A stretch of DNA of 64,000 nucleotides. It comes from Bacteroidia bacterium (lineage in GTDB: Bacteria > Bacteroidota > Bacteroidia > Flavobacteriales > Schleiferiaceae). This document shows, piece by piece, positions 4,717 through 37,836 of the stretch. A program made the translations under genes and the position numbers. Every line of letters begins with the position of its first letter. Positions within the stretch are counted from its first letter, which is position 1. Where the stretch lies: NCBI GenBank assembly GCA_030424545.1, contig JAUHWL010000003.1, forward strand, positions 248,001 through 312,000. Reading direction: 5' to 3'. Under the pieces are notes generated by a model. That model saw only the letters and a program-made list of their open reading frames with translations, had not been told where the DNA came from and searched no databases.

Positions 4717-6109
4717 AGAAAAGAAAACACTTGCATTGGTTTTGCCAGATGGCATAACACTCCGGAATTTCGTGTATTCCTCATTTATTGAAGAAGCTTC
4801 TAAAGATTTTAGACTCGTTATTTTTCATTTTGTGGATAAATCAGTTTTTAAAGAGATTGATGAAAAATTAACAAACCAGATAACGTTCTATAAAATTGAA
4901 ACATTTAGGGAAGGCATTTTGGCCAAAGTGTATCGATACGCCAAATTGAAAGCAAGCTTGTTGTTGAACTTTAAATCAGATCCGAACCCAACATTTTTAA
5001 ATAATTTCCCGGCCTATAAAAAGTATGCCTTTCCAGAACGCATGCTCTTTAGGTTGTCAGAATTATTGGCAACTAATGCAACCCAAAAAAAAGTTGAGAG
5101 CCTAGAGAAGCTTCATGTAAAGTGGTTTGATACAGGTAACAAGAGCGAAATACATAATGCCAGAGAAATTATTACAAAAGAAAATGTAAGCATCGTATTG
5201 AATGCACACCAGCGCGATGTAAAGAGTTTACCCGTAATGCGTGCTGCACAGTGGCTAAACATCAAAACCGTGAATTTTATTTACAGTTGGGATAATTTAC
5301 CTAAAGGAAGAATGGCCGTGCCTGCAGATCATTTTTTTGTGTGGAGTGATCATATGAAAAGCGAGATGAACCGGTATTATCCTGATATAAAAAACGAACG
5401 CATTTCAGTTACGGGAACTCCCCAGTTTGAATTTTATCATCGTTTTACGAAAACACCAAGAGAGAAATTTGCCGCAAAGCATGGGTTAGACCCAGATAAA
5501 AAATGGTATCTCTATTCGGGGGATATGACAGATGCCTCTCCGTTTGATCAGCATTATTTAGAAGATGTGTATAACGCATGGTGCGCCTCAAACGAAAAGG
5601 AAAACACACAATTGGTTTTTAGAAGAGCGCCAACTGATAATACAGGAAGGTTTAATGAGGTGTTAGCAAAATGCCCTGAAATTGTTGCGATAGAGCCACT
5701 TTGGAAACAATTTGGAAAGCACTCCATGACCTTTGCGGTGAGCAAAGAAGATGTGCAAATGCTAGTTGATATAATAGAGCATTGTTATACAGCGGTGAAT
5801 TTTGGAAGTACTATGGCGCATGATTTTGCCCAAAGGAAAAAACGTGTCTTTTACATAAACTATGAACACCCTCTAAATAAGCATGATACATGGACTTCTG
5901 CCTTTTTTTATAGATACACACATTTTGAAAGTTTAGAAGGACTAAATGCTGTGGAATGGGTCTATGATAAAAGTGAAATTAGCCCCATATTCGCAGCAAA
6001 TTTTAAAGACGCTGGTAACGGGCATATGCAATGGCATAATAAGATTTCCAAAGACACAAATAAAGCTGTAGTGAATATTGTGAACAACCTTAAATTACTT
6101 ACAGAATAA
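4709..6109 (+). CDS. GT-B-like surface carbohydrate protein, family uncertain
   Basis: A 466-residue soluble protein starting with TTG inside the last codons of the membrane-protein gene (8-bp overlap), which suggests translational coupling. The segment INAHQRDVKSLPVMRAA-like (near residue 170), then WDNLPKGRMAVPADHFFVWS and ISVTGTPQFEFY, resembles the inter-domain region of 2-epimerase, UDP-glycosyltransferase and CDP-glycerol-transferase-type GT-B folds. The C-terminal part has VNFGSTMAHDFA, where those families bind the donor phosphate. No signal peptide is visible. Transfer of a sugar or polyol phosphate is likely, but the exact reaction is not readable. Confidence 0.5.
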   Translation: MSREKKTLALVLPDGITLRNFVYSSFIEEASKDFRLVIFHFVDKSVFKEIDEKLTNQITFYKIETFREGILAKVYRYAKLKASLLLNFKSDPNPTFLNNFPAYKKYAFPERMLFRLSELLATNATQKKVESLEKLHVKWFDTGNKSEIHNAREIITKENVSIVLNAHQRDVKSLPVMRAAQWLNIKTVNFIYSWDNLPKGRMAVPADHFFVWSDHMKSEMNRYYPDIKNERISVTGTPQFEFYHRFTKTPREKFAAKHGLDPDKKWYLYSGDMTDASPFDQHYLEDVYNAWCASNEKENTQLVFRRAPTDNTGRFNEVLAKCPEIVAIEPLWKQFGKHSMTFAVSKEDVQMLVDIIEHCYTAVNFGSTMAHDFAQRKKRVFYINYEHPLNKHDTWTSAFFYRYTHFESLEGLNAVEWVYDKSEISPIFAANFKDAGNGHMQWHNKISKDTNKAVVNIVNNLKLLTE

Positions 6110-30038: not shown

Positions 30039-30434
30039 TCAATCGCCAAAGGCGATGTGCTGCGAAAATAACGCGTTTGATTGTGATTTATTGAAAGGAT
30101 TATACCTGCCTTTTAAATCGTTTCTCAGCTGTGCCAAAAGTTTTTTAGGATTTTGTCGGTTGTCCCAGAAGGCAAGAATTTTAATAGAATCTTCATTTAT
30201 TCTGAAGTACAGACTGTAATGTCCCAATGATGAAGTTCTTATCTCACCTGAAAATATGGGCCGTGAAGAATTTGGATTACGTGAAATAAAATCAACTTGT
30301 TTAACAACAGTCTTCGATAGTTTACTTGAATAGCTTCGCGATAAATTTCTTCTATCCCAATATTCTAAAATATCGGTCAATTGATATTCGGCAATTTTCG
30401 TCCATTCAATTTTTAATCTTCGTGACTCAGCCAT
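30039..30434 (-). CDS. RelE/ParE-family toxin
   Basis: A 131-residue toxin-like protein. The N-terminus EWTKIAEYQLTDILEYWDRR and the core SLGHYSLYFRINEDSIKILAFWDNRQNP are typical of the RelE/ParE fold. The last ~21 residues (NPFNKSQSNALFSQ and after) extend past the usual fold end and are encoded by a 57-bp repeat that recurs at 30767. ParE members poison gyrase and RelE members cut mRNA; which applies is not readable. The gene overlaps the antitoxin by 22 bp. Confidence 0.78.
   Translation of the reverse strand: MAESRRLKIEWTKIAEYQLTDILEYWDRRNLSRSYSSKLSKTVVKQVDFISRNPNSSRPIFSGEIRTSSLGHYSLYFRINEDSIKILAFWDNRQNPKKLLAQLRNDLKGRYNPFNKSQSNALFSQHIAFGD
30059..30116. repeat. 57-bp repeat, copy 1 (inside toxin gene 3' end)
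   Basis: This stretch encodes the C-terminal tail of the toxin and matches 30767-30823 in the same orientation with about six mismatches by eye. The normal ParE/RelE core ends before it, so the repeat has probably added or replaced the tail. Confidence 0.65.
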
Positions 30435-30670
30435 TTATCAAGATTTTTCTTCAAATCTTCATGAGAAATCATGCGGCCATATTTTACATCTTCTTCTGCC
30501 AAACGGAGCATTTCTAATTGCTCGGGGGTTAATTCAATGGCATCGTTTCCTATATATTCTTTCGAAGTAGTTGACGAAATAATTTTTTCAATCGATTGTA
30601 GCACATCGAGATTAGAGATTGAAAGAATTTTTTCAATCAGCTTGTTTTTTAAAATTTCTTCTTGGCTCAT
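30413..30670 (-). CDS. Antitoxin of the RelE/ParE pair
   Basis: An 85-residue acidic, helical protein encoded just upstream of the toxin and overlapping it by 22 bp. The C-terminal part MISHEDLKKNLDKWLSHED fits the toxin-wrapping tail of small antitoxins, with ELTPEQLEMLRLAEEDVKYGR before it. No clear ribbon-helix-helix or HTH DNA-binding motif is visible, so autoregulation is uncertain. Assignment rests on size, charge and pairing. Confidence 0.72.
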   Translation of the reverse strand: MSQEEILKNKLIEKILSISNLDVLQSIEKIISSTTSKEYIGNDAIELTPEQLEMLRLAEEDVKYGRMISHEDLKKNLDKWLSHED

Positions 30671-30937: not shown

Positions 30938-33280
30938 ATGAAAAACAGGGCTCTTATTCTTTTTACTTGTTTGGCGTTGTTTGCTCAGGCGCAATTTGAC
31001 ACCACCTTTGGCAGCGGCACGTTTTACGCGGTAGACACTGCAAGTGGAATGCCTATTTCTGGAGCCGCGTTGAATTACAAAGCCATAGCCATAGACGACA
31101 CCCTGTTTGCTACTGCCTATACAGACACCACCAACCCCTTGGGCGAAGTGAACTTTACCGTACCCACCCACTTTAGAATAACCATTGGCATGAACGAATG
31201 GAATGCCCAACAAGGCATTTTTTACCCCAACCCGGCAACCGACTTAAATGTGCTGCTTACCACCAAAGACGACTACACTTTAATGCTCTACGATGTAAAC
31301 GGAAAACTTGTTTTGCAACACCACGCTAAACAGACCGAACACCTTTATGTAGATTTAGAACATTTGGCAGATGGGCTGTATGTGGCTGAAGTGCGCGGCA
31401 CACAAACCACAAGTACCACTGCAAAAATTTACAAACGCACAGGTAAAAAAACCGGTAAGCTAAAGCTTGATGTAGCAGAAGGTTTTGGCAAAGTAGCCGG
31501 AAATGGCGCCATTTACCGCGTGTATGTTACCCCGCCTTTTGGCTATAAAAGAGACAGTGTAGAGGTAACCCTGCAAGATGGTGCCAACGGAACAGTGCCC
31601 ATTGCCGTGCAACGGTACGATACCCTGCGCACCGCGGTGCAATTTCAAGTGTTACCGGCCGTGGAAGGTGTGCAGGTGCATTTGCAACCCAAGCAAGTAG
31701 CCGACCTGCTGCCAAATGTGTTGTACCAAGATAGTACGGCTGCCAATGGACAAACACCGCCTATACATGTAATTACAGCCATAGATACATTAAACCCCGT
31801 ACCCAGTGCCCCAAGTTTTGTGTATGATGTTACCCTTTTACCGCCCAAAGGGTGGGTGCGCGACACCTTAAGCATAAGCGCTGGCGGGTTGCACCAGGTG
31901 AGTTTAAATGCGTGGGATACGGCAACTGCAAATCAGCCAATCAGAACAAGAAATACAATAACTAATTCAACAATTCCAAATATCCCTCTAAACATCGAAG
32001 TACAAATCGCTGAAGATGTTGCAGATACTGTTTTTATAAACTATACTACTAGTGTTGCAGGCGTTGCAATAGCAACAGAAAATAATGAAATAGACACTAC
32101 GGGAACAAACACATTTTCAAACAACGGAACTACATGGATAATCAGTTCACCATATGTACATACCATGTCTGCAAGCGACAGCCTTAATCCGAATTTACAA
32201 TATACAGGTTTTGATACGGCAACAGATATTATAACTGTTTTCAATGGAACTAATCCAACATTTAATCATTTCAAAAACCCAACACCAGTTCCACAATGGC
32301 ACGGCAAACAACGAATAGGAATTACAGCAGGGCAGTTTGATAAAGATTTTAATAGAACAGCAGCAGACAGCGCATTAGTAGTATTCTATAACCAAACACA
32401 AAACACAACAGACACGGTAACACTTGATGTAAACGGTGAAGGGAAAGGACCATGGGCAAACAATGGCGACACAATTTTTGTTGGAAGCGGCTACGTTGGT
32501 GGCGTTGGAACAAACGGTGAAAACCTAAAAATGATTAAAGGTGTTGAAATAGATATTGCAGGTGCAACATTTGCAAACCCAGACACCATCACAGAGTTAA
32601 AATACAATTTCTTACCAGATAGTGTAAACGTTTCTGCACTTGGCGTTACTGAAGGAATCAGTGATCAAGAATTAAAATGGATGCATAAACGTCCAGCAAT
32701 TGAGAACCAACTTGATACAGTGACAATTTATATCAACCCCTCTGGTTTCACATCACTAGAACTAGGTAGTATTCAAAGTGTTATCGATTCTGCAAATCAA
32801 ATTTTTCCGATTTATACCAAAACAGTAAGCTCTCCATTATCTAATCCAAACCCTCCATCAGGTTATCCAACATTTAATCAGTGGATAGATTCGAATTACT
32901 CAAATAGTCTCTACGGAATGAACGTTTCGCAAGGGAGTAATAATCTAACTAATGTAAAGAATGTGGTATCAAACATTATTGGTGAGGGTTTGAATTTTGT
33001 TATTGCAGATTCACAAGTTTCAGCGGCTAGAGCAGAGCTATGGGCTGAGATGTACTATAATCGATTTGCATTCGGAGGAATTCCTGCAAGCTACCAACTA
33101 AGTGTAACTAACGGAGTTAATCCAACACTTCCAACCACATGGGACTTTGCAAATTTCATCCTTAAATATCATTTCGAACATGAAATGTTTAAAGGAACAA
33201 CACCTGCATCAACAGGAACGCCAACGCAAAACATCAGTGTTAACTTTTACTATGATGATAACAACATCACGGCTCAGTAG
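30938..33280 (+). CDS. Secreted protein with T9SS type-A sorting domain near its N-terminus, mosaic
   Basis: A 780-residue protein starting at ATG 30938, with signal peptide MKNRALILFTCLALFAQAQ. Residues ~95-170 (FYPNPATDLNVLL, YDVNGKLV, LADGLYVAEVRG) match the T9SS C-terminal sorting domain, yet 600 more residues follow. From base ~31930 the DNA turns visibly AT-richer and codon choice changes; the first third is GC-richer than its neighbours. The C-terminal part has no motif I recognise. A fusion of an older T9SS gene with a later-acquired segment is the best reading. Function is unknown. Confidence 0.7.
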   Translation: MKNRALILFTCLALFAQAQFDTTFGSGTFYAVDTASGMPISGAALNYKAIAIDDTLFATAYTDTTNPLGEVNFTVPTHFRITIGMNEWNAQQGIFYPNPATDLNVLLTTKDDYTLMLYDVNGKLVLQHHAKQTEHLYVDLEHLADGLYVAEVRGTQTTSTTAKIYKRTGKKTGKLKLDVAEGFGKVAGNGAIYRVYVTPPFGYKRDSVEVTLQDGANGTVPIAVQRYDTLRTAVQFQVLPAVEGVQVHLQPKQVADLLPNVLYQDSTAANGQTPPIHVITAIDTLNPVPSAPSFVYDVTLLPPKGWVRDTLSISAGGLHQVSLNAWDTATANQPIRTRNTITNSTIPNIPLNIEVQIAEDVADTVFINYTTSVAGVAIATENNEIDTTGTNTFSNNGTTWIISSPYVHTMSASDSLNPNLQYTGFDTATDIITVFNGTNPTFNHFKNPTPVPQWHGKQRIGITAGQFDKDFNRTAADSALVVFYNQTQNTTDTVTLDVNGEGKGPWANNGDTIFVGSGYVGGVGTNGENLKMIKGVEIDIAGATFANPDTITELKYNFLPDSVNVSALGVTEGISDQELKWMHKRPAIENQLDTVTIYINPSGFTSLELGSIQSVIDSANQIFPIYTKTVSSPLSNPNPPSGYPTFNQWIDSNYSNSLYGMNVSQGSNNLTNVKNVVSNIIGEGLNFVIADSQVSAARAELWAEMYYNRFAFGGIPASYQLSVTNGVNPTLPTTWDFANFILKYHFEHEMFKGTTPASTGTPTQNISVNFYYDDNNITAQ

Positions 33281-33289
33281 TTTTATATA

Positions 33290-33514
33290 ACCACTCGGTC
33301 TTTCGTTGCTTTGCACGAAATCCACCTCTCCTTAGAGAAAACAACCACTCCGACTCCTTCGGAGCCACTTCTCCTTTAAAAGGAGAGGACATGAAAAGGA
33401 TTAAATAGGAGATTTTATTTAGAAAAACAAAAACATTTTTGACCCCACGGTCATGTCTCCTCCTAGTAGGAGGAGTACCCAGACGAAGCGAAGCTGGTAT
33501 GGGGGAGGTGGTGG
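33290..33514. repeat. ~225-bp direct repeat, left copy, flanking a DUF559 gene
   Basis: It begins ACCACTCGGTCTTTCG and ends GGGGGAGGTGGT. It holds a short palindrome TCTCCTTTAAAAGGAGA (33370-33386) and a hairpin CTCCTCCTAGTAGGAGGAG (33457-33475). About 87 percent of positions match the copy at 33901 by eye. It starts 10 bp after the stop of the mosaic T9SS gene. Confidence 0.85.
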
Positions 33515-33541
33515 TTTTTCAAGAATCACTATTTTTAAATT

Positions 33542-33898
33542 ATGCGCCTACACAATAGAAAATACCTGAAAACCAAACGGCAAGATCTCCGTAATCACGC
33601 AACCCCTGCAGAATCTTTTTTATGGAAGTATTTAAGAAAAAGTCAATTAAAAGGCAGAAAGTTTAGAAGACAGCACAGTATTGAAAACTACATTGTTGAT
33701 TTTTATTGCCCATCAGAAAAACTGGTTATTGAATTAGACGGTGCTGTGCATGAATATGAAAAACAAGCCGAAAAGGATGAAAGAAGGGAAGAGCGTTTAA
33801 ATGAACTTGGTATTCAGGTTTTGCGTTTTGAGAATCAATTTGTGTTTGATAATCTGCAATTGGTATTGAATTGTATTTCTGATGCGTTTAAAGATTAA
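33542..33898 (+). CDS. DUF559 endonuclease-domain protein (PD-(D/E)XK fold, Vsr-like)
   Basis: A 118-residue protein covering a whole DUF559 domain. The leading helix holds ATPAESFLWKYLR with the conserved glutamate. KFRRQHSIENYIVDFYCP supplies the first catalytic aspartate, and KLVIELDGAVHE the ExD pair. The C-terminal IQVLRFEN is also typical. The fold is related to Vsr-type very-short-patch nucleases; DUF559 activity itself is not established. The gene is the only one between two ~225-bp direct repeats, which suggests a mobile or repeat-maintaining unit. No partner gene is present. Confidence 0.85.
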   Translation: MRLHNRKYLKTKRQDLRNHATPAESFLWKYLRKSQLKGRKFRRQHSIENYIVDFYCPSEKLVIELDGAVHEYEKQAEKDERREERLNELGIQVLRFENQFVFDNLQLVLNCISDAFKD

Positions 33899-33900
33899 CA

Positions 33901-34127
33901 ACCACTCCGTCTTTCGTTGCTTCGCACGAAATCCACCTCACGTTGGAATGCAGCAACCACTCCGACTCCTTCGGAGCCACCTCTCCTTTATAAGGAGAGG
34001 GCATGAGAAGGTTTAACTAGGAGATTGTATTTAGCAAAACAAAAACACTTTTAACCCCACGGTTATGTCTCCTCCTGGCAGGAGGAGTACCCAGACAAAG
34101 CGAAGCAGGTCTGGGGGAGGTGGTAGA
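33901..34127. repeat. ~225-bp direct repeat, right copy, flanking a DUF559 gene
   Basis: It begins ACCACTCCGTCTTTCG only 2 bp after the DUF559 stop and ends GGGGGAGGTGGT. Its two hairpins (33992-34008 and 34070-34088) keep their stems relative to the left copy even where bases differ. A short direct repeat GAGGTGGTAGA follows at its end. It stops about 28 bp before the 3' end of the heptose fusion gene. Confidence 0.85.
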
Positions 34128-34154
34128 TGCGGAGGTGGTAGAAAACAGTAGAGA

Positions 34155-36029
34155 CTAAAAAACTAAATCGGCAAATTTCACTTCCATGGCAATCAAATCA
34201 TATTCGGTGGGTTTTCTTTCGGCATACAATTTTTCAATGGCTTCGGGCGAAAATCCTTTCCAATCGTAAAATGTGGTTACGCGAGATTTTAAGGTTTCTT
34301 CATCAATCTGCTTGAAGATTTTTAAATCGGCCAAACTGCGCAGATGTTCTGTGCTGAGCGCTACAATACCTTCTAAAATAATGACATCGTGGTCTTCCAA
34401 TTTGTAATCTACTTGCTGAGCAGTGCGCAATGGATGCCGTGCGTAGCCAGATGCCGCAACTTCATTGCCGTGTAAAATGGCTTCCACATCGCGCTCTAGC
34501 TTGGGCAGTTGGAAGTTGTGAAAAACGTCAACCTCTGTTTCCCGCTCTGATTTTGGCAAAATCCAATCGTCTAATTCCACTTTTAAAACTTTGTGGCCAT
34601 TGGCTTCAAGGGTGTGTTGCAAGTAGGTGGCCAAAGTGCTCTTTCCAGAACGGGTATTTCCTGCCACGCTAATCACAAATGGGCGTTTGGCCGATGCCGT
34701 AAATGCATCATAGATCTGGGTAATTTCGTCTTCAAGTGGTTCATCAAGAATAAAATCAACCGCCTCTTGCATGTTGCCCATAAAATAGTCGGAGAGGAGT
34801 TTGGCGTTTTTTACGCCATGGCCTGTTTTTACACCAATGGTTTTGCAACCTGCTGCTTTGCCTGCCAAACCATCGCGTTCACTGTCTCCAATCATCCAAC
34901 TTTGAGATAGGTCGATATTAAAACGCTCGGCCGCTTGCAGCAGCATGCCGGGTTTGGGTTTGCGGCAATCGCACACCACTTTAAATTCGGGCACTTCGCC
35001 TGGAAAACCGCCATCAGGGTGGTGCGGACAGAAGTAGATGGCATCTAAGAATGCGCCATCGTGGCCGAGTTCGGTTTCTAGTTTTTTAAATATTTCGTTG
35101 AGGCCGTCTAAATCTGTGAGGCCGCGGGCAATTACGCTTTGGTTGGTAATCACTACCGCCAAATAGCCCGATTTATTTATTTTTTTAATCACATCTGCGG
35201 CAAACGGATAAAGCTTCAATTCGTCTGGATGCTTGATTAAATCGGTGTCGTAGTTGATTACGCCATCGCGATCTAAGAAAATGCACTTCTGTTTGTTGTG
35301 CAGATTTCGGGCTTCAATTTTGCCCGAAAGCAAATCGCCTTCTACTTTTTGCAGGCGGCCAGGCGTGCCCATATCTTTTAAATATTCGGGTGTATTGTAG
35401 CCATAAACATTTAGCTCGTGTACAATCTTGGGGAAAATGTCTTTGCCAAAATCTGCTTTTACGCCTGCTTGCAAATGCTTAAAAATGCTTGGCGAAAAAA
35501 TATAAGTCGCGGCATTCACCACATTTCTGTACCGGAAATCTTCGGTGTGCGGTTTAGGGTAGAAGTTGGTCACGCGGCCGTCATCAGCAAGGGCCAATAA
35601 ATCGCTATCGTACGGATGATCATTCGGATGGACAACCAACGTGGCTTCGCTGCCTTTTTCTTGGTGGAATGCATATAATCGGTCGATGTCCATATTGACC
35701 ATGACATCTCCATAAAGCACCAAGAAGTCTTCTTGCAATTCGGGCTCGAGAGCTTTTACACCACCCACGGTGCCCAGCGGTTGGGTTTCTTCGTAATATT
35801 TTATGGCTACGCCAAAGTCTTTGCCATCGCCAAAATAGTTGATGATGCTTTCTTTGAGGTGATTTACGGTGAGCCAAATTTCGGTGATACCGTGCTGTGC
35901 GCATAGCTCTACCAAATAGGCGAGGAGCGGTTTGCCAGCGATGGGCATCATCGGTTTGGGAATATCTTCACGAACGCCTTGTAGGCGCGTGCCTTTGCCA
36001 CCGGCAAGAATGACTGCTTTTTTAATCAT
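34155..36029 (-). CDS. Trifunctional: heptose-1-phosphate guanylyltransferase (HddC) - heptose bisphosphatase (GmhB) - uridine-kinase-like domain
   Basis: A 624-residue three-domain protein. Residues 1-~235 are a nucleotidyltransferase (VILAGGKGTRLQG; PLGTVGGVKAL; LYGDVM) of the HddC type. Residues ~245-425 are a HAD phosphatase of the GmhB type (FLDRDGVINYD; zinc loop CPHHPDGG with CDCRKPKPGM; IGDSERDG). Residues ~440-624 are a P-loop domain with SVAGNTRSGKSTLATYL and LDDWILPKSERE, as in uridine kinase. With gmhA and hddA it would complete GDP-D-glycero-alpha-D-manno-heptose synthesis. The substrate of the kinase-like domain is unknown. Confidence 0.85.
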   Translation of the reverse strand: MIKKAVILAGGKGTRLQGVREDIPKPMMPIAGKPLLAYLVELCAQHGITEIWLTVNHLKESIINYFGDGKDFGVAIKYYEETQPLGTVGGVKALEPELQEDFLVLYGDVMVNMDIDRLYAFHQEKGSEATLVVHPNDHPYDSDLLALADDGRVTNFYPKPHTEDFRYRNVVNAATYIFSPSIFKHLQAGVKADFGKDIFPKIVHELNVYGYNTPEYLKDMGTPGRLQKVEGDLLSGKIEARNLHNKQKCIFLDRDGVINYDTDLIKHPDELKLYPFAADVIKKINKSGYLAVVITNQSVIARGLTDLDGLNEIFKKLETELGHDGAFLDAIYFCPHHPDGGFPGEVPEFKVVCDCRKPKPGMLLQAAERFNIDLSQSWMIGDSERDGLAGKAAGCKTIGVKTGHGVKNAKLLSDYFMGNMQEAVDFILDEPLEDEITQIYDAFTASAKRPFVISVAGNTRSGKSTLATYLQHTLEANGHKVLKVELDDWILPKSERETEVDVFHNFQLPKLERDVEAILHGNEVAASGYARHPLRTAQQVDYKLEDHDVIILEGIVALSTEHLRSLADLKIFKQIDEETLKSRVTTFYDWKGFSPEAIEKLYAERKPTEYDLIAMEVKFADLVF

Positions 36030-36290: not shown

Positions 36291-37031
36291 TTAACAACCG
36301 CCCGCGCCAAAGGTTATCACCAATTCTTGGTCAACATTTTGGCCTTGTGCATTTTGGGCGGGCGTCCATTTGCCAGGGGCATTGGTGAGTAAATTTAAAA
36401 TGGCAGCATCAATCTTTTTGTACCCCGAAGTGCGGTCTAAATAAATGTTTGACAACAAGCCGTTTTTGGTTACTGTAAAATAGAGTTTTGCAAATTGAAG
36501 TTTACTTTCATCAATATCAGCCGTGTTTTTTAGGTTTTCTATTTTCAAATAATCGATCAGTGCATTTTCACCTTCATTATATACTGCTTGCTTTTCTGGA
36601 ACTACCGTAAAATGTGGTTCTGCTACAAAGTACTCTACTTCTCCTGTTTCTTGGTTTGTAGTGTGATAAGGAGCTCGAATGATAAAGTGATTAGAATAAT
36701 CTAAGTTTTCTAGCATAAAATGCTGCTCTTTAGAAAGTTTGTAAAAGTTGCTTTGTACGCGCTTATCCGTCTGTTTGTCGTTTTCAACAATAACTACTTC
36801 CAAGTATTCATAGTTCATTAATGGTTGAAGATGCTTGTCCTCAAAAAAATCGGCCACTGTAGCTGCTTGTTGCAATTTACTTTTGGTAATAGGTTCAAAC
36901 CTAGGAGTAAGAGAATACGTAAAGTTGACATATCGCACCTCATTTTTTGTGGTTGAATTGCCATTGTTTACAAAGGCCATTAAAAAAAGGCCGAGGATAA
37001 CTGCGCTAAAATTTAGAATTTGCTTTTTCAT
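36291..37031 (-). CDS. Exported TonB-C-like domain protein, paralogue 2
   Basis: A 246-residue protein starting at ATG 37031 (MKKQILNFSAVILGLFLMAF), since an earlier start at 37082 would overlap the upstream gene. After the signal segment, the C-terminal ~70 residues (LYFTVTKNGLLSNIYL, YKKIDAAILNLL, GKWTPAQNAQGQNVDQELV) follow the pattern of the TonB C-terminal fold. It lacks the proline-rich spacer of true TonB and is not followed by ExbB/ExbD. It ends in Gly-Cys. It is a diverged tandem copy of the 37060 gene, 28 bp upstream. Confidence 0.65.
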   Translation of the reverse strand: MKKQILNFSAVILGLFLMAFVNNGNSTTKNEVRYVNFTYSLTPRFEPITKSKLQQAATVADFFEDKHLQPLMNYEYLEVVIVENDKQTDKRVQSNFYKLSKEQHFMLENLDYSNHFIIRAPYHTTNQETGEVEYFVAEPHFTVVPEKQAVYNEGENALIDYLKIENLKNTADIDESKLQFAKLYFTVTKNGLLSNIYLDRTSGYKKIDAAILNLLTNAPGKWTPAQNAQGQNVDQELVITFGAGGC

Positions 37032-37059
37032 GTTTGTGTGTTTTATGTTTTTAAAAAGT

Positions 37060-37836
37060 TTAGCAACCGCCCATTTTTCCAAAAGAGAAAACCAATTCTT
37101 GGTCTATGTTTTCACCTTTATCATTTTTGGCGGGAAACCATTTTCCTGGAAAACTTGCAATTAATGCCACCATTTTTTTGTCGATAGAAAGATATCCCGA
37201 AGTGGATTCTAGATAAACATCTCCAATTTCTCCATCTTTAGTTACAACAAAATTTACCCTTCCAAACCAAAGTTTACGTTCGTCTACCCCAGCGGTTTCT
37301 GGCATGCTGTTTATTTTTAAATACTCTAGAAAAGCTTCATTACCATCAATATAGGCAGCTTTTTTTTCGGGTACAATAGAGATGTAATAAATAAACTGGT
37401 AGTTATATTTTATATTTTCGGTACACGCTGCTTCAATAACAAAATTTGTAGAGTAATCAACAGAATGAAGTAATGCAAGTTGTGCTGTGTTGAATACTTC
37501 GGTTTTTCCAAATTCACTTTCGCCAAGACTCGTTTTTGTTTCTCCTGGAGGTAGTACAGTAACCCGCACATTTTTAAATGTAGTTAAACCTTCAATTTCT
37601 TCAGGCGAAAAAAGGTCATGAATCGTTTTTGCATTCTTTAATTGTGATTTTGTTAGTGTTTTCTTAAAACGAGAATCAAGTTCGTAATTGAATCTTGCGG
37701 TCTTAAAATTTTCAAGAATGGGCGTGTTATCTTTTTCGCTTGTCATGGTTTCATTTTGTGTTTGCGGAAGTAAGCTGAAAGCCATTAGCACAATGGCTGC
37801 GAGCGTTGAGTAAAGTAATAACTTGTTCTTTTTCAT
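37060..37836 (-). CDS. Exported TonB-C-like domain protein, paralogue 1
   Basis: A 258-residue protein with N-terminal membrane segment KLLLYSTLAAIVLMAFSLL. The middle region has ELDSRFKKTLTKSQLKNAKTI, parallel to TPRFEPITKSKLQQAATV in its paralogue. The C-terminal TonB-like fold is VNFVVTKDGEIGDVYLESTSGYL then GKWFPAKNDKGENIDQELV, ending Gly-Gly-Cys. A periplasmic role in contacting an outer-membrane or surface partner is inferred. A promoter with good spacing lies just upstream on the minus strand. Confidence 0.65.
   Translation of the reverse strand: MKKNKLLLYSTLAAIVLMAFSLLPQTQNETMTSEKDNTPILENFKTARFNYELDSRFKKTLTKSQLKNAKTIHDLFSPEEIEGLTTFKNVRVTVLPPGETKTSLGESEFGKTEVFNTAQLALLHSVDYSTNFVIEAACTENIKYNYQFIYYISIVPEKKAAYIDGNEAFLEYLKINSMPETAGVDERKLWFGRVNFVVTKDGEIGDVYLESTSGYLSIDKKMVALIASFPGKWFPAKNDKGENIDQELVFSFGKMGGC

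Follow-up and report, generated by a model that had tools for sequence, protein, structure and literature searches.

The window, a stretch of 64,000 nucleotides of a Bacteroidia genome, holds a small nuclease gene of the DUF559 family bordered by two palindromic repeats. Judging from sequence comparisons, we consider it probable (roughly 0.6) that this is one unit of a palindrome-bounded, homing-type mobile class spreading by DNA cleavage and repair. In a unit of this class, REPIN-like palindromes would enclose a small nuclease gene of the EDxHD/Vsr-like DUF559 type. The compact form would run from an inverted end (e.g., GCCCCACC) through a hairpin, the ORF and a second hairpin to the inverted end GGTGGGGC; larger units, the window unit among them, would be flanked on both sides by complete palindromic repeats. 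Insertion would be either intergenic or in frame in conserved genes, as an extra, apparently unspliced domain with palindrome-encoded linkers. We strongly infer that the units are mobile, and DUF559, annotated as a protein of unknown function, probably drives a self-spreading element. The place of DUF559 in a homing-endonuclease family is already known, as are intragenic palindromes; the link between the nuclease and the palindromes, as well as the unspliced, site-specific in-frame lineages, appear to be new. In the literature searched for DUF559 together with palindromes or mobility, most subscription journals being outside the search, we found no account of such units.

The DUF559 ORF of the window is located at 33542-33898 on the forward strand and encodes 118 aa (PF04480, E = 6e-33 in the Pfam search). 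It lies between two direct repeat copies, at 33289-33512 (+) and 33900-34124 (+), with 88% identity over 225 bp; an earlier note on this DNA had claimed such copies, by eye with about 87% identity. The left copy, which is REPIN-like with AACCAC...GGAGGTGG(T) ends around several hairpins, is separated by 29 bp from the ORF start, and the ORF stop ends 1 bp before the right copy. The ORF coordinates also agreed with the note in placing the unit between the stop of a forward-strand gene, at 33280, and the 3' end, at 34155, of a reverse-strand gene (34155-36029). The ORF list and the Pfam search gave no transposase gene in the unit, as the note had said, and in particular no HUH Y1 transposase gene; DUF559 is its sole ORF. 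No Rfam family (ribozyme, group I or II intron, or other known RNA) reached the gathering score in the region 33200-34200. Elsewhere in the window, we noted two overlapping small ORFs of 131 and 85 aa at 30039-30670 (-), by eye resembling a RelE/ParE-type toxin-antitoxin pair, as well as adjacent ORFs of 263 and 258 aa at 36291-37836 (-), by eye resembling paralogues.

Compared to dinucleotide shuffles, the fold of the left copy had z = -4.2 and that of the right copy z = -4.9, and three of the five strong hairpins in the 64-kb window fall in the DUF559 unit. Each copy contains a tag-hairpin-CCA motif. In the left copy it was read from the sequence as GGTC-TTTCGT...ACGAAA-TCCA at 33297-33324 (+); its right-copy counterpart, CGTC-TTTCGT-TGCTTCGC-ACGAAA-TCCA at 33908-33935 (+), has the strict CGTC...CCA form and was found by the motif scan. 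Hairpin 1 is situated at 33368-33388 (+) in the left copy (sequence and folding) and at 33980-34000 (+) in the right copy (9-bp stem, hairpin scan). Hairpin 2, CTCCTCCT-AGT-AGGAGGAG in the left copy, is situated at 33457-33475 (+; folding and hairpin scan) and, with an 8-bp stem, at 34069-34087 (+; hairpin scan). The two hairpins per copy described earlier are thus real by fold z and scan, and those of the second copy had been slightly misplaced. The further claim that the stems stay paired despite base changes was overstated: nearly all differences between the copies fall in loops, and the stems show a central swap of A/T for G/C and an outer pair changed from T-G to C-G.

The exact window repeat has only two copies in the 3.4-Mb genome (3.38 Mb), both flanking the window ORF, and the genome-wide search found no solo copies of it. 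The earlier note had held that a repeat occurring nowhere else would refute the mobile element, and the two-copy count is literally that outcome. The criterion was ill chosen, as every unit has a repeat of its own. The window genome encodes five DUF559 proteins; all five genes have matching palindromic repeats on both sides, and the repeat sequence differs from pair to pair. For example, one gene (contig C14) lies in frame within methionine synthase, with a 102-bp repeat on each side (92% identity). Since the window repeat has no further copies, solo and with-ORF counts were made on the other repeat families. ORF-less palindromes related to the repeats of the other units were found in frame in HutU (two) and IleRS (two), and others are intergenic. 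The palindromes of HutU (urocanate hydratase) are REPIN-like and lie about 200 codons apart (C7:5110-5190 and 5713-5793). One of the two in IleRS occupies a DUF559 site and the second is at C12:217197-217273 (variable loop). A covariance model, R1, built from the repeats of the window genome, matched 11 distinct places in this genome and little elsewhere; with few matches outside, it was rejected as a general detector of units.

The DUF559 family was present in 170 of 296 sampled Bacteroidota genomes. Among the ~150 best matches listed, from 60 relatives and then from the 296 Bacteroidota genomes, at least 35 have open frames of 600 aa or longer; the hosts were identified by reading out most of these long frames and by a Pfam run on ten host proteins. 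MetH carries the domain at a single site in five genomes. In HsdR it lies immediately ahead of the helicase GxGKS motif in seven cases, all at one site, and at another site in one case, and in LeuRS at two sites (four and three). Further hosts are IleRS, RecG (four), MCM (two), HsdM (two), Eco57I-like modification enzymes and UvrD-type helicases, and in HemF the domain is attached N-terminally (three). An alphaproteobacterial locus (L037) holds a unit in the editing region of IleRS, a host named by eye. No stop codon interrupts the frame of these units, and in the ten host proteins Pfam found DUF559 and host domains only, with no Hint/intein or other splicing domain. Hosts recognised by Pfam were MetH, LeuRS, RecG, HsdR, HsdM, MCM, UvrD-type and HemF. 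Linkers with matching, mostly inverted, terminal repeats were present in 29 of the 39 in-frame units compared to 2 of 39 control windows, the typical ends being GCCCCACC-hairpin ... hairpin-GGTGGGGC. By this reading of the frames, the insert appears to stay in the host protein, unspliced, and the palindromes seem to render the insertion tolerable by being translated into short Pro/Gly-rich linkers.

Several of these sites were also found empty. MetH runs uninterrupted in 36 relatives, the window genome being the only one in which a unit splits it; in the phylum sample, a unit was present in three of ~130 genomes with this form of MetH. In eight more genomes the MetH site has additional or diverged residues that do not amount to full units, and two of these look like remnants. 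One IleRS site showed three states: empty in five genomes, including a congener of the carriers, occupied by a solo palindrome in frame in the window genome, and occupied by hairpin-DUF559-hairpin in two others (G021, G030). The HsdR site is empty in G052 and occupied in G006. This evidence comes from the MetH, IleRS and HsdR units, the window genus being represented by one genome, and the comparisons of filled with empty IleRS and MetH, also with a view to target-site duplications, ran between different genera or distant congeners. The solo palindromes are best explained as ORF-less derivatives of units, or as landing pads. In E. coli, ycjD (DUF559) was present in 3365 of 5426 complete genomes, and no clean empty site was seen, as the ycjD-less lineages examined have an efflux operon beside sapF (in the sapF-fabI interval). 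A 41-bp palindrome beside ycjD has matches elsewhere in E. coli genomes. A simple empty site was equally lacking for the S. meliloti and A. lipoferum DUF559 loci when plasmid records were compared.

In a tree of 71 nucleases, built on a short alignment and with many forks unresolved, the 11 insertion-site groups required 12 changes, compared to a minimum of 10 and a mean of 30.4 for shuffled labels (0 of 200 shuffles as low). MetH-site nucleases from four families fell on one side of a branch with support 86, with one ungrouped row inside, and those of two distant genomes had 63% identity. The five nucleases of the window genome were scattered over the tree. Vertical descent may explain a part of the clustering, because several site groups come from single families. 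The MetH and HsdR groups span families; HsdR genes themselves move horizontally. For three pairs of embedded nucleases whose dS could be estimated, being neither tiny nor near saturation, dN/dS was ~0.05-0.11, so the nuclease seems to be selected even as a passenger domain; judged by this ratio, the embedded nucleases are under purifying selection.

Ten columns were invariant in a 44-sequence alignment, including E24, D53, E64, D66, H70 and D79, all present in the window nuclease. The AF2 model of this nuclease (pLDDT 88.9; four database-record rows left out of the input alignment) had its best match in 3hrl, an uncharacterised DUF559 protein (Z 15.5). The match to the homing endonuclease I-Bth0305I (3r3p) had Z 11.3, rmsd 2.8, 93 aligned positions and 26% identity, and that to Vsr (1cw0) had Z 9.4. 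As modelled, the nuclease has the catalytic fold of I-Bth0305I and Vsr. The defence-system scan with PADLOC returned weak matches only, one of them to a homing endonuclease model at E = 3e-5, and membership in a defence system was rejected on these grounds. DUF559 has been assigned to the EDxHD homing family in the context of inteins (PMC9403480).

The DUF559 units thus resemble I-Bth0305I, an EDxHD (Vsr-like) homing endonuclease, in catalytic fold, in this family assignment and in sites empty in relatives (MetH, IleRS and HsdR units). They differ in having no self-splicing intron or intein, in being bounded by palindromes and in occurring also between genes; besides, I-Bth0305I has an extra DNA-binding region which the 118-aa window protein does not have. 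In the homing elements known to us, the insertion is hidden by an intron or an intein, unlike in the DUF559 units. With inteins that carry homing endonucleases the units share in-frame positions at conserved sites of conserved proteins, site-specific lineages and patchy presence. On the other hand, there is no Hint/intein domain in the DUF559 hosts, the insert is apparently kept in the protein, and the ends are DNA palindromes.

Homing predicts the pattern seen here: sites that are conserved, nuclease lineages specific to them, a patchy distribution, and a nuclease that is intact and belongs to a homing family. The nuclease would cleave or nick an unoccupied, site-specific target in the homologous gene or repeat, and host recombination would then copy the unit into the break. 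A solo palindrome would be what remains once the ORF is lost, or else it would be the landing pad, the direction of change being a matter of interpretation. The window unit belongs to the class by its architecture, which on its own does not separate homing from models where the enzyme acts on hairpins. One such model is structure-directed transposition, where the nuclease acts on its own hairpin ends in the manner of RAYT and REPs, possibly where DNA is single-stranded at replication forks, and places units and solos wherever insertion is tolerated, without recognition of a homologous target. It is consistent with the hairpins conserved at unit ends and in solos, with the solos at different sites of the window genome (twice in HutU and at the second IleRS site), with dispersed solos of the same family beside a unit in genome G048 and with tandem repeat arrays. 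The scatter of solo palindromes and the large units with complete repeats on both sides are the reason why it keeps some weight. Still, the hydrolytic PD-(D/E)XK/Vsr-type fold of DUF559 has no HUH or DDE strand-transfer chemistry, and the nuclease lineages track the host site, as predicted by homing but not by free transposition. We therefore regard this model as unlikely, and homing as the better supported of the two mechanisms that the earlier note had compared with the unit; the RAYT-REP comparison held for the anatomy and failed for the enzyme chemistry.

A second alternative is that the palindromes are moved by something else, such as an unlinked RAYT or host slippage or recombination, and that DUF559 genes merely sit between them or hitch-hike. 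In a wider comparison of flanks, 350 bp upstream were compared with 350 bp downstream at 104 DUF559 loci with enough flank, and other ORFs of the same loci served as controls. Matching flanking repeats (at least 27 bits) were found at 69 of the 104 loci, a sample of non-independent loci with clusters of related Clostridia, compared to 4 of 156 control ORFs; at 40 bits or more the numbers were 51 of 104 and 1 of 156. The effect was seen in Bacteroidota, in Clostridia, in other phyla and in the named records (A. lipoferum, S. meliloti, N. gonorrhoeae). DUF559 genes without such flanks in relatives, which the earlier note had named as contrary evidence, were not the rule, although at about a third of the loci no pair was detectable in 350-bp flanks at 27 bits or more. 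That the flank pair is not universal, that REPs near genes are common and that palindromes also surround GIY-YIG genes would all fit passive association. However, within an element the left repeat resembles the right one, elements of a single genome have different repeats, and the similarity of the nucleases covaries with that of the flanking repeats across loci (Mantel rho 0.25-0.43, p = 0.001). In two further units of the window genome, the closest nuclease elsewhere is accompanied by the closest repeat as well; with the window unit, the loci with the closest nucleases and those with the closest repeats form overlapping sets. Together with purifying selection on nucleases even when embedded in hosts, these observations make passive association improbable, clearly more so than transposition directed by hairpins.

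Least credible of all, a Vsr-like repair or defence nuclease fused purposefully to restriction, repair and tRNA-synthetase genes through GC-rich linkers would suit the many restriction or DNA-repair hosts (HsdR, HsdM, RecG, UvrD-type) and the Caulobacter DUF559 protein VsrA, needed for DNA-damage signalling in a methyltransferase mutant and proposed to act in mismatch repair (PMC12907096), but not the patchy presence at the same site, the hosts MetH, MCM, HemF, LeuRS and IleRS, the inverted terminal repeats at unit edges or the solo palindrome at a unit site. The claim of an undescribed, repeat-flanked mobile unit is well supported by the related units, the empty and solo sites and the site-specific lineages; as a whole, the interpretation of the earlier note is partly supported.

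Among known repeats, REPINs with RAYT are similar in that small palindromic ends flank a gene and solo ORF-less copies exist (here of the repeats of other units, not of the window repeat). They differ in their enzyme, RAYT being a HUH Y1 transposase and DUF559 a hydrolytic EDxHD-type nuclease. Among Rickettsia palindromic elements, some of the short palindromes are likewise read in frame in genes, as are two palindromes in HutU and those at two sites of IleRS in the window genome. CGTC-tagged REPs were reported without a dedicated enzyme in a 2013 survey (PMC3733652). The window unit and flavobacterial units hold CGTC-hairpin-CCA motifs, a likeness in the form of the motif. Unlike both of these repeat types, the DUF559 unit includes a nuclease gene as its part. 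The strict CGTC-stem-loop-CCA motif was found 18 times in 60 kb of DUF559 flanks compared to 6 times in 437 kb of background, mostly at flavobacterial units. Most other units do not have it and use other palindromes, and the motif was rejected as a feature common to all DUF559 units. E. coli YcjD (PRK09767) and NGO0050 (3hrl) belong to the same protein family as the window nuclease; they are known as uncharacterised proteins, and no mobile unit was found described for them in the literature searched.

According to a standard view, it is by travelling with self-splicing introns or inteins that homing endonucleases become free to enter highly conserved coding sequence (PMC3943268). Contrary to this view, a nuclease of a homing family appears to invade conserved genes (MetH, tRNA synthetases, RecG, HsdR and others) unspliced. 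DUF559 becomes a candidate enzyme for the palindromic repeats left without one in the 2013 survey (PMC3733652), the units would explain odd Pro/Gly-rich insertions in annotated proteins, and DUF559/YcjD gains a testable function. A broader proposal, to which we give somewhat less than even odds, is that orphan bacterial palindromic repeats (CGTC-tagged REPs and Rickettsia-type palindromic elements) have their missing engines in free-standing small nucleases, namely DUF559 and, in parallel, GIY-YIG. Jointly they would form a bacterial homing class which invades conserved coding genes without splicing, palindrome-encoded linkers replacing the intein or intron.

For GIY-YIG, a gene on the A. lipoferum 4B plasmid AZO_p3 lies between sufB and sufC (255374-255992; positions 583-1200 of locus L273). 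It has head-to-head CGTCATCCCCGC...GCGGGGATCCA repeats on both sides, a canonical CGTC pair, and three other Azospirillum records have no unit between sufB and sufC. We take this as a lead rather than a result: ends of one kind may serve several small nucleases. A Sphingomonas plasmid (L188) has a DUF559 gene in the sufB-sufC interval. Small GIY-YIG ORFs were also seen directly after tRNA genes, in the window genome at C16:53125-53590 (L284) and at four more loci (L278, L279, L282 and L291). There, the tRNA 3' end and the terminator are repeated on the far side of the ORF, as if it were homing to tRNA ends.
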